This document shows positions 8,357-50,489 of a DNA stretch of 50,489 nucleotides, in pieces. Position 1 is the first letter of the stretch. Each line of letters opens with the position of its first letter. Below the pieces are notes generated by a model. It saw only the letters and a program-made list of their open reading frames with translations. It searched no databases and was not told where the DNA came from. A program made the position numbers and the translations under genes. The stretch comes from a virus. Location: IMG/VR virus record IMGVR_UViG_3300036781_000222, positions 1 through 50,489 of that record; one strand, given 5' to 3'.

Positions 8357-8586
8357 CCTAAATCCCCCGCCTGATGGCACGCCCGCAGCGTCGCCCGTTC
8401 CCGGCCATAGTCGGTGATCATCCGGGCAACCATGGGGGCTTGCGACTTGATCGCCGCCAGCTCGTCAGCGGCCTGCGTCTGCTCGGCAGCGGTGTAGCTG
8501 ACCGGCCATGGGCAGTCATGGCTGACGGGCTGGAGCTTGACGGGGGTGCAGGCGGTGAGGATGAGGGCGAGAGCGAGCCATTTCAT
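8353..8586 (-). CDS. Small lipoprotein (DYGRER type), possible outer spanin
   Basis: Predicted 77 residues from ATG 8586 (MKWLALALILTACTPVK). It has a signal peptide with lipobox LTAC. The mature part carries CPWPVSYTAAEQ and ends with MITDYGRERATLRACHQ, a pattern I associate with lysis-cassette proteins of alphaproteobacterial phages. Its first residues resemble those of the neighbouring lipoprotein (MKW(L/V)), which could reflect duplication of the signal. ATGA-type overlap with its neighbours. Confidence 0.6.
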   Translation of the reverse strand: MKWLALALILTACTPVKLQPVSHDCPWPVSYTAAEQTQAADELAAIKSQAPMVARMITDYGRERATLRACHQAGDLG

Positions 8587-39601: not shown

Positions 39602-40134
39602 CGAGCTAAAGCGTTGGAATTGCTAGCTTTGCTGGGCTGGATTGGGGCGCGGACTGCACGGGAATGTGATCGAACTGCACTGCCTCGAATAGTGCCATAG
39701 CGCACAATCGAAATCAACCCCTAGCGTTCCCTATCCTACGTTTGTTGCAGTGCGGTAAGTGGCGTACGAGGTGTCCACGAGGTGTCCTTGCCACTAAAAC
39801 AGGTGTTTTTTAATTTAATTACAATGACTTGACCAATAGTGTCCATGTGTCCAGTCCAAGGAGGTATACAACACCCCCCTAAACACCCCCTAGAGGGATA
39901 ATATTAACACATTGTACAACACGGGGAAGGACAGTAGGACACTAATATACACTACACATACGAATATAATATTTTCAGTTAGTTAGTATAGATGGTAGCG
40001 CTAACAAAGCGGCCGAAACTAGCCTGGACACTACGTGGACGCTTGTGACACTAAGGGTAAAATGTTTGTTGCAGTGCAGCAAGAAAATGGTACGCAACAC
40101 CCTTGTGGGTGGGGTGGTTCCAGGCGCGGAGATC
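39602..40134. other. Main non-coding region, origin candidate
   Basis: No believable gene on either strand. The part 39800-40010 is far richer in A and T than the rest of the window. It holds direct repeats (AACACCCCCT twice at about 39873-39895, TACAACAC twice) and many GTGTCC/GGACAC words. It separates the - strand late block from the + strand primase and so is the natural place for an origin and divergent promoters. Nothing proves replication starts here. Confidence 0.45.
39740..40077. repeat. Direct repeat GTTTGTTGCAGTGC flanking the AT-rich region
   Basis: Identical 14-mers at 39740-39753 and 40064-40077, 324 bases apart. Each is followed by similar sequence (gcggtaag..tggcGTACG and gcagcaag..tggTACGC), so the true repeat is about 35 bases with small gaps. 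The copies bracket the AT-rich segment. Confidence 0.6.
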
Positions 40135-40160
40135 AAAAAAATCCCCGCCGAAGCGGGGAT
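40135..40160 (-). terminator. Rho-independent terminator after the 40174-40383 gene
   Basis: On the - strand, ATCCCCGC-TTCG-GCGGGGAT followed by a run of T (complement of the A-run at 40135-40141). It lies 14 bases downstream of the small gene, shows that the gene is expressed from the - strand, and keeps its transcript out of the origin candidate. Confidence 0.85.
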
Positions 40161-40173
40161 GGGGTGGGATGGG

Positions 40174-40383
40174 TTAGAAGTATCGCCATATCCTGGTCTC
40201 AATCTGATCTGGGCGAATGACCCTGGTTTTAAGTGTGATGCCAAGTTTCTTCTGCCAATAGATCAAGGTGGCTCTGTTTCCTCCCGTGAGGAGCGGCACA
40301 CGCATGCTGTCACCCGGCTTAAGCTGGATCAATGCATCTCCCCATGTCCCCTGAAACGGCTGCCCATTAACAATCAGCCACAT
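40174..40383 (-). CDS. Isolated small protein with own terminator
   Basis: Predicted 69 residues from ATG 40383 (MWLIVNGQPFQGTWGDALIQ), with the excellent ribosome site GAGGAGG six bases upstream. Basic C-terminal half (RATLIYWQKKLGITLKTRVI). It stands alone, divergent from the primase, between a terminator and a palindrome. No family recognised; a regulatory role would fit the place. Confidence 0.65.
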   Translation of the reverse strand: MWLIVNGQPFQGTWGDALIQLKPGDSMRVPLLTGGNRATLIYWQKKLGITLKTRVIRPDQIETRIWRYF

Positions 40384-40424
40384 AGATGGCCTCCTCAAAA
40401 ATTCAAATTCCAATAAAAAACATA

Positions 40425-40440
40425 TAACCTATGTTGGTTA
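40425..40440. promoter_or_regulatory. Palindrome TAACC-N6-GGTTA, operator candidate
   Basis: Perfect 5-base arms with a 6-base spacer in the divergent gap between the - strand small gene and the primase leader. Located where both promoters would be expected. No convincing -35/-10 pair was read on the + strand. Confidence 0.35.
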
Positions 40441-40489
40441 CCGTCAATTATGATAGGATTCACGAGTCGGTTAGCTACCGGCTATCTGG

Positions 40490-40552
40490 CATGGGGGTGC
40501 CGGATCTTCCCCCTTGTGGGTCGGGCGCCCCCATGTCGCAAAAAGGGGGATC
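40490..40552 (+). promoter_or_regulatory. Possible H-type RNA pseudoknot hiding the primase ribosome site
   Basis: Stem A pairs 40490-40501 with 40524-40535 (12 pairs, one G-U). Stem B pairs 40508-40515 (TCCCCCTT) with 40543-40550 (AAGGGGGA), 8 perfect pairs, and its 3' strand is the ribosome site of the TTG start at 40556. The stems interleave, which is the topology of a pseudoknot. It could make primase translation depend on a protein, RNA or ribosome opening the structure. Confidence 0.5.
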
Positions 40553-40555
40553 AAC

Positions 40556-42778
40556 TTGACCAATATTTCCGCATTACCCGTTTCAGCTACCCTCACCGCC
40601 GCCCGTGGCTATGCCGCCCGTGGGTGGTACACATTCCCGGTGCATGGCTGGGATGGCGAGAATTGCACCTGTGGCGATCCCGCCTGTGGCAACCCTGGCA
40701 AGCACCCAGCGACCCGGCACGGCCTGAAGGATGCGTGTCTCGATGGCGACCGCCTGGTGCAGATGTGGCGCCTGGGCTGGAACGTGGCGATCCGGACCGG
40801 TCCCGAGAGCGGCGTGTTCGTGGTCGATGTCGATGGCGCACCGGGGGCGATGGCCCTGGAAGAACTGGAGCGCCGCCACGGGAGCCTGCCAGCCACGCTG
40901 GAGGCGACGACAGCCAGGGGTCGGCATATCTTCTTTACCTACCCCGCCAAGGCTATCAAGACACGCGTGGCAGCCCTTGGCCAAGGCCTGGACGTGCGTG
41001 GCGCTGGTGGCTATGTGGTGGCAGCACCCAGCCTGCACGCCTCGGGCGCGGTCTATAGCTGGGCCAATGACCTGATCCCGGTAGACGCCCCGGACTGGCT
41101 GATCGATATGGCCGCGGCGGATTGGTCCAGGCCTGCACCGGCAGCGCGACCGCTCGGAACGTGGCAGCGCGAGGACGATAACGAGCGCTGGAGCAGCCAG
41201 GACGTGCGTGAGATGCTGACCGCGATCCCGGCCGACCTGATCTATGACGACTGGGTGCATATCGGCATGGCGCTGCACGAGGGCGGCTATCCCCTGGCGC
41301 TATGGGACGAATGGAGCCGGCGCGGTGAGAAGTACCGGCCGGGCGATTGCGTCAAGCGCTGGGGCGGCTTTAACGGCCGGGATGGGATCACCATGGGGAC
41401 GCTGGTGGATCAGGCCAGGCTTTATGGCTGGAAGCCACCACAGCGCGAGCCGATGCGGATCGAGGACCATCCGGCCCGCGTGTTCCTCGAGCGGGTCAAC
41501 GCGGCCTGGAAGGCGCGGACGGCAGCGGAAAAGGTCGAGGCGGTGACCACCGGCCGCGGGCTGGATGTCGGGGCAGTGGATGGCCTGATCGGAGAAACCG
41601 CGCAATGGATCGTCGATACCGCGATCAAGCCCCAGCCCGAGCTGGCGCTCCTGAACGTCCTGGCCGCCCTTGGCGCGGTCTATGGCCGGCGCTATGCCAG
41701 CCCGATCAACACCAGGACCAACATCTATATGGTGGGCGTCGCGGCGACCGGAAGCGGCAAGGACCACAGCCGGCGCCAGATCAAAAGCCTGATGGTCGCG
41801 GCCGGGATGGAGGACCTCCTGGGCGGCGATGGGGTGGTGAGTGCGGCCGGGATCGGGACCCTGCTTCAGAAGACCCCCAGCACCCTCCTGATGCTGGACG
41901 AGTTCGGGATGCTGCTGCAATCGATCTCCGATGAAAAAAGCGGAGCGCACCTGAAAGGGATCAGCAAGACCCTGACCGAACTCTATAGCAGCTCCAGCTC
42001 GGTCTATAAGGGCGGCCAATATGCCGACAGCAAGCGGGAATCGGTCGTCATCACCCAGCCTAACCTCTGTATCTATGGCACGACCACGGTCGGAGAGTAC
42101 ACCAAGGCGCTGAAGCGCCGGGCGATCGAGAGCGGCGAGCTGAACCGCTTTATCGTGGTGCCGACCAGCGAGGATTACCCGGATCCGCGCGAGACGATGG
42201 AAAGCATGGGCGTGCCAGACCGGCTGGTGGAGGCCTGGGCCAGCTTGCGGCCAAAGGTAAATGGGCTGCAAGGCAGCATGATCGTGCCGCAACCCACCGT
42301 GGTCTTGTGGGGCGATTGCAAAGACCGGATGTTCCAGATGCTCAAATACGAGCATGAGGAAATGAAAAAGGCCCAGCAATTCACCGGCTTATGGCACCGC
42401 TACCGGGAGAATTGCATCAAGATAGCGATGATCCTTGCCATCACCCGGGCGCCGATGGCCCCGCAGATCCGGCATGCCGACCTGGATTTCGCCGAAACCC
42501 TGGTGCAGCTCAATATCGAATTCATGCGGAACCTGGTCGGCGATTACGTCGCGGAAAGCCAGCACGAGGATAACAGCAATACGGTCATGAGGCTGATTAA
42601 GAAGGCCGGAGCCGAGGGTGTCAGAGGGCGCGACCTCAAGCGGGCGACGCGCTATCTGGACAAGAAGCAGTTTGAATCCGTCCTCGGCAGCCTGCTGGAC
42701 CAGGAACGGATCGTCGCAGAGGCAAGCCAGGGACGCGGCAGCCCAAGCATGGTCTACCGGGTGGCTCCCGATGAGTGA
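40556..42778 (+). CDS. Bifunctional primase-polymerase / helicase
   Basis: Predicted 740 residues from TTG 40556, chosen for the AAGGGGGA ribosome site 5 bases ahead; an open frame from 40514 has none. Residues 14-185 form an archaeo-eukaryotic-type Prim-Pol domain with catalytic DVD at 91-93 and RGRHIFF. Residues 207-292 match PriCT-2 (ERWSSQDVREML, YDDWVHIGMALH). Residues 300-740 are a DUF3987-like helicase with Walker A ATGSGKD (397-403) and Walker B LLMLDE (444-449). It should prime and unwind at the phage origin. Confidence 0.88.
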   Translation: MTNISALPVSATLTAARGYAARGWYTFPVHGWDGENCTCGDPACGNPGKHPATRHGLKDACLDGDRLVQMWRLGWNVAIRTGPESGVFVVDVDGAPGAMALEELERRHGSLPATLEATTARGRHIFFTYPAKAIKTRVAALGQGLDVRGAGGYVVAAPSLHASGAVYSWANDLIPVDAPDWLIDMAAADWSRPAPAARPLGTWQREDDNERWSSQDVREMLTAIPADLIYDDWVHIGMALHEGGYPLALWDEWSRRGEKYRPGDCVKRWGGFNGRDGITMGTLVDQARLYGWKPPQREPMRIEDHPARVFLERVNAAWKARTAAEKVEAVTTGRGLDVGAVDGLIGETAQWIVDTAIKPQPELALLNVLAALGAVYGRRYASPINTRTNIYMVGVAATGSGKDHSRRQIKSLMVAAGMEDLLGGDGVVSAAGIGTLLQKTPSTLLMLDEFGMLLQSISDEKSGAHLKGISKTLTELYSSSSSVYKGGQYADSKRESVVITQPNLCIYGTTTVGEYTKALKRRAIESGELNRFIVVPTSEDYPDPRETMESMGVPDRLVEAWASLRPKVNGLQGSMIVPQPTVVLWGDCKDRMFQMLKYEHEEMKKAQQFTGLWHRYRENCIKIAMILAITRAPMAPQIRHADLDFAETLVQLNIEFMRNLVGDYVAESQHEDNSNTVMRLIKKAGAEGVRGRDLKRATRYLDKKQFESVLGSLLDQERIVAEASQGRGSPSMVYRVAPDE

Positions 42779-47723: not shown

Positions 47724-48015
47724 AAGACATGCTGTGGGATTTGGCTACCTGGGCGCTCCGGTGCGATTCTGCAACCGCGCTCATCAGGATATTTATGTCG
47801 CCAGAAGGAGGGCGCTAAGAATGGTCGATATCGATGCGAAAGAGAACGCTGCACTGGATGCGGCAAGCGCGCTGGCCGGTGAGTATTTGGAGAGCTTGTC
47901 GGCGACCGATCTGAGGGCCTTCACTGCAGAGCAATGGCGCCAGCTTCTGCAGGTGATCATCGGTGGCTATACGGAAGAGCTGGCGCGGATCGAGGCGAAT
48001 GAGTGCCCGTTTTAG
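47704..48015 (+). CDS. Cys/His zinc protein, DUF6511-like
   Basis: Predicted 103 residues from GTG 47704, overlapping the regulator by 20 bases. N-terminal CAICKRHAVGFGY then RFCNRAHQDIY gives a C-x2-C...C-x3-H zinc site. The C-terminal half (ENAALDAASALAGEYLESL, QWRQLLQVIIGGYTEEL) is helical. The whole layout resembles the DUF6511 family of alphaproteobacterial phages, recognised by pattern only. Function unknown. Confidence 0.6.
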   Translation: MPCAICKRHAVGFGYLGAPVRFCNRAHQDIYVARRRALRMVDIDAKENAALDAASALAGEYLESLSATDLRAFTAEQWRQLLQVIIGGYTEELARIEANECPF

Positions 48016-50226: not shown

Positions 50227-50489
50227 ATGCTTTTCAAAATTCCCTTCCTCTCATGGACCGGCAAAGCGGCGCTGGAAATTGAAATTCCAGATGGCACGGA
50301 AAGCCGCTTTTACATGCGAGCCGCGCTGACGATCGCCGTCAAAAAGCGCGCGGACCTGAGTGGCGCGGACCTGAGAAGCGCGGACCTGAGTGACGCGGAC
50401 CTGAGTGGCGCGGTCCTGAGAAGCGCGGTCCTGAGCGGCGCGGACCTGAGCGGCGCGGACCTGCCAGTCTTTACGATCTGTCCTGAGGT
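50227..50489 (+). CDS. Pentapeptide-repeat protein (5' part; continues at base 151)
   Basis: Starts MLFKIPFLSWTGKAALEIEI with a short N-terminal region of about 40 residues that is not repeated. It then enters pentapeptides (ADLSGADLRSADLSDADLSG and on) up to PVFTICPEV at the window end. The sequence from 50364 equals bases 25-150, and the frame continues with the DUF5758-like domain at the left end. Ribosome site AGGAGAG. First gene under the early promoter. Confidence 0.85.
   Translation, partial: MLFKIPFLSWTGKAALEIEIPDGTESRFYMRAALTIAVKKRADLSGADLRSADLSDADLSGAVLRSAVLSGADLSGADLPVFTICPE

Follow-up and report, generated by a model that had tools for sequence, protein, structure and literature searches.

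A stable hairpin and a possible Shine-Dalgarno-closing alternative fold in the leader of a viral primase gene

Does the RNA ahead of a viral primase gene fold in a way that could control the access of ribosomes to that gene? The initial annotation of this locus placed a 12-pair and an 8-pair stem, interleaved, just before the primase and read them as a pseudoknot that hides the ribosome site. We analysed the whole IMG/VR virus record, a stretch of 50489 bases (the window). It encodes a terminase, a head-tail adaptor, capsid and tail proteins, SSB, a Sak4-like annealing protein, a Cas4-like exonuclease, a helicase, and the primase.

Two interleaved stems at the primase start

The primase gene begins with a TTG (40556-40558). 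Its product matches the Pfam domains Prim-Pol, PriCT_2 and DUF3987 (E = 4.8e-39, 2.4e-20 and 2.5e-8, respectively) and PHROG 3022, a DNA primase family (6.3e-96). The N-terminus was aligned to that of a relative that is 45% identical (L002), and the TTG start is supported because this relative opens M-T at the same alignment columns. The gene and its leader contain the following features.

40556-42778, plus strand: primase gene with a TTG start; Prim-Pol, PriCT_2 and DUF3987 domains
40487-40501 (core 40490-40501), plus strand: 5' arm of stem S1, 15 pairs, stacking -34.4
40524-40538 (core 40524-40535), plus strand: 3' arm of S1, pairing with the 5' arm
40508-40515, plus strand: 5' arm of stem S2, UCCCCCUU, eight Watson-Crick pairs with 40543-40550, stacking -18.4
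40543-40550, plus strand: Shine-Dalgarno (SD) sequence AAGGGGGA by direct reading, doubling as the 3' arm of S2, with the TTG 5 nt further on
40503-40522, plus strand: inner stem within the S1 loop (40503-40507 with 40518-40522), a competitor of S2 and part of the minimum-energy fold
40484-40505, plus strand: early hairpin AUCUGGCAU-GGGG-GUGCCGGAU, from prefix folding and from the fold with S2 forced

Every pair of the two stems was verified in a letter-by-letter check. S1 has a core of 12 pairs (40490-40501/40524-40535), including one G-U, and can be extended to 15 pairs (40487-40501/40524-40538), including three G-U; it is the strongest stem in the window with both strands considered. S2 consists of eight Watson-Crick pairs between TCCCCCTT and the SD. 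S1 and S2 interleave, as do the two stems of an H-type pseudoknot.

Across both strands of the window, S1 and S2 have the best summed stem energy of any interleaved pair (-52.8), and the next unrelated interleaved site reaches -40.6. When the plus strand was simulated with a first-order Markov model, pairs of this strength arose in 3 of 200 runs and stems as strong as S1 alone in 15 of 200. Given S1, controls equal S2 in 0.4% of cases for composition shuffles, in 1.6% for equally spaced segment pairs from the window, and in 19% for dinucleotide loop shuffles, which tend to retain the C run. Among the 70 ORF starts that carry an SD-like motif, the primase SD ranks first for upstream pairing (-18.4; next -14.9), and the primase leader has the lowest folding energy. 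None of 200 dinucleotide shuffles of 40461-40560 folds as stably as the actual sequence (z -3.34). These tests are generous because they were run after the site had been picked. The stem pairing is moderately improbable by chance; it is unusual without being overwhelming, and four G/C runs account for much of it. The initial annotation had considered long G and C runs unlikely to fit so well by chance.

A strong GC hairpin and a C run that happens to match a G-rich SD, with no regulation, could account for the arrangement, and we judge this fortuitous origin possible if somewhat unlikely. The frequency of S1-strength stems in the simulations and of S2 in the loop shuffles speaks for it, as do the lack of conservation and the fact that S2 is unused in the favoured fold (both below). 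However, the joint event is rare in simulated windows, and it falls on a replication gene's SD. A fortuitous origin leaves room for a hairpin that insulates the SD or slows mRNA decay.

Competing folds of the leader

The nested optimum for 40480-40580 combines S1 with the inner stem, at -42.2 kcal/mol. Forcing S2 yields the early hairpin, which can coexist with S2 but not with S1, together with S2, at -33.3; given this gap of 9 kcal/mol, S2 would seldom form without a strong trigger. In the nested ensemble of the free leader, S1 has a probability of 1.000 and S2 of 0.000, and the two stems are mutually exclusive in nested folding. When the 3' arm of S1 is blocked, the S2 probability is 0.999 and the SD is closed. 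Blocking 40490-40507 gives S2 a probability of 0.96, and blocking only 40478-40501 closes the SD mainly by a different pairing (S2 probability 0.26). With S1 blocked, the leader thus has a plausible fold that pairs the SD, by S2 or otherwise, as in an SD-occluding leader.

In prefix folding, the early hairpin appears first and S1 is complete by 40540, ahead of the emergence of the SD. With S1 formed, the G run of the SD has a mean unpaired probability of just 0.32; its "open" state is only relative because weak downstream pairing holds the G run.

Alternatively, both stems might coexist in an H-type pseudoknot, with the SD blocked until a protein or a ribosome opens the structure. Every pair for this structure is present, in the best interleaved stem pair of the window, and the favoured fold places the C run in its hairpin loop. 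Under ideal A-form geometry, an S1 of 12 or 13 pairs can just be bridged by its third loop of 7 or 6 nt, but for 14 or 15 pairs the 5 or 4 nt that remain are too few. The base of S1 must therefore open for the pseudoknot, the third loop being too short, and so must the inner stem. By simple rules (stacking values summed, with generic penalties), the rough pseudoknot energy is -31 to -35, about 7-11 kcal/mol worse than the nested fold, and on this reckoning it lacks the advantage over nested folds expected of an H-type pseudoknot. The capacity to pair as a pseudoknot is distinct from folding into one. As a ground state, the structure proposed in the initial annotation is not supported by the nested fold and the near-zero probability of S2, and we regard the pseudoknot as unlikely. 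In these models, S1 and S2 appear to act better as competitors than as partners.

We tentatively favor a stable hairpin in the primase leader with a mutually exclusive alternative fold that closes the SD and is possibly regulatory. The long hairpin (S1 and the inner stem) would form by default upon transcription, before the SD is made, with the complementary C run in its loop and the SD just 3' and unpaired with the hairpin. Were S1 prevented or undone by a protein, an antisense RNA or a ribosome, S2 or another pairing would cover the SD, and primase synthesis would be lowered. We infer that transcription comes from upstream of S1 and that one of these triggers may switch the leader in the cell. 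The earlier proposal of a translational switch retains the exact pairing of S2 with the SD, which could control access to it, but no signal for a regulator or for ribosome passage was established. That the SD, as a pseudoknot or switch strand, senses the primase or another replication protein and times the onset of replication seems to us rather improbable.

Relatives and neighboring DNA

A DNA similarity search in phages found no DNA-level relative of the window. Identity to the best full-length relatives of the primase is 39-46%. None of their primase leaders, examined by inspection, has the S1 and S2 stem pair, and no homologous leader was found among them, which leaves the pairing without conservation or covariation support. 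Relatives that lack compensatory pairing had been named in advance as counting against the pseudoknot, and formally they do; the refutation is weak because the leaders are not homologous. Since these relatives are distant and organized differently, those without the leader neither refute nor support a function here. Searches by way of the 69-amino acid (aa) ORF (below) and the helicase gave no relatives, and a search with the terminase small subunit gave 21 loci, just one of which has a primase match (weak). Fourteen IMG/VR matches to the leader pattern have no primase relative in the fetched stretches and look like unrelated GC-rich sequence. Rfam has no match above the gathering score in the whole window, and a local run at a permissive threshold gave only chance matches.

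Three more distant primases (L038, L039 and L040; 25-27% identity) have leaders, within ~120 nt before the primase start, with common GTCGACG inverted repeats and repeated GGGAGAA-like motifs; this is a separate candidate leader structure. A tract of repeats lies upstream of the L002 primase.

In many relatives (L061, L063-L066, L069, L023 and L076 are examples), the primase start abuts the preceding ORF or overlaps it by 1 or 4 nt, and the preceding ORF is DUF6511 in the three that were tested (L019, L023 and L061). The DUF6511 match in the window is at 47821-48012 on the plus strand (E 3.1e-17), ~7 kb away from the start of the primase. The window primase, which has a leader of its own and a strong SD, is set apart from the DUF6511-primase arrangement, and it may have lost its coupling to an upstream gene. 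The region upstream of the primase is divergent, with an ORF on the minus strand, and contains the following features.

40431-40559, plus strand: possible 42-aa leader ORF, an open frame with a TGA that overlaps the primase TTG (TTGA)
40419-40447, minus strand: possible divergent promoter for the 69-aa ORF, TTGACG-17-TATGTT, by consensus match only
40177-40386, minus strand: 69-aa ORF
40141-40160, minus strand: strong terminator-like hairpin and T run found by a scan, just past the end of the 69-aa ORF

Translational coupling, in which ribosomes on the 42-aa ORF melt the structure and reinitiate at the primase, would fit the exact 4-nt stop-start overlap and the abutting or overlapping starts of the relatives. 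However, the codon score of this ORF (-1.15) lies between the coding and off-frame ranges (5th percentile 2.2 and 95th percentile -2.3, respectively). It also has no convincing SD, no homologue in the searches made and no match to DUF6511, and we find such coupling quite doubtful.

S1 was also considered as an intrinsic terminator and as a repeated operator. No T run follows it and the terminator scan did not report it; the half-site CATGGGGG has a single further copy, at 8431, which lacks an inverted partner. GTGTCC occurs 16 times in the window, and 6 of these motifs, along with all three copies of TAGTGTCC, fall in ~260 bp (39771-40031) of the intergenic region that separates the terminase small subunit gene from the primase. 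This region, possibly an origin or operator, also has ACGAGGTGTCC in tandem and a direct repeat of 20 nt (39740 and 40064). The ends of the record (1-120 and 50370-50489) have tandem repeats of the type CCTGAG-n-GCGCGGA that partly match each other and may represent pentapeptide-repeat-like coding or an assembly overlap. A DNA-level element in place of an RNA switch, either an operator or a single-strand initiation hairpin near a replication origin, is very improbable: a long inverted repeat does adjoin the primase, with the GTGTCC cluster and direct repeats nearby, but the full S1 half-site is unique within the window, and the cluster is ~0.5 kb off and excludes S1.

Comparison with known leader structures

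The gene 32 pseudoknot of phage T4 is ~28 nt long and lies well upstream, 67 nt before the start codon according to a review, and it nucleates the binding of gp32 over an unstructured start region (PMC3014915, PMC535899). Like this operator, the primase leader is a structured RNA 5' of the start codon of a phage replication gene. The pseudoknot has been shown for T4 gene 32 and is proposed for the primase leader, where, unlike in T4, the SD itself would serve as one strand of the pseudoknot.

The repZ mRNA of IncI-alpha (ColIb-P9) and the repA mRNA of IncL/M encode replication proteins and have alternative leader pairings, with repA coupled to a leader peptide (PMC10724649, PMC12365149). The primase leader is similar in having alternative pairings ahead of a replication protein. 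A pseudoknot activates translation of repZ and repA and antisense RNA opposes it, whereas in the primase leader the pairing would shut off the SD, and a scan showed no antisense promoter across the leader. A translated leader ORF that runs up to the start codon belongs to the repZ/repA type; the 42-aa ORF, with its TTGA overlap and its ambiguous codon score, is a candidate for one. On present evidence, the primase leader can be assigned to neither the T4 gene 32 nor the repZ/repA type.

The ermC-type attenuators also have mutually exclusive stems, one of them over the SD, as the primase leader does. Their default state is closed and is opened by stalling on a leader peptide, unlike the computed default of the primase leader, which leaves S2 unformed.

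If the leader does not switch, it is a caution that interleaved complementarity between G and C runs need not imply a pseudoknot. A 2010 review suggested that the T4-type gene 32 pseudoknot may still be the sole viral one in translation autoregulation (PMC3014915). If the leader does switch, the primase would become one of the few replication genes of phages known for structured control of translation, in a leader small enough for reporter testing.
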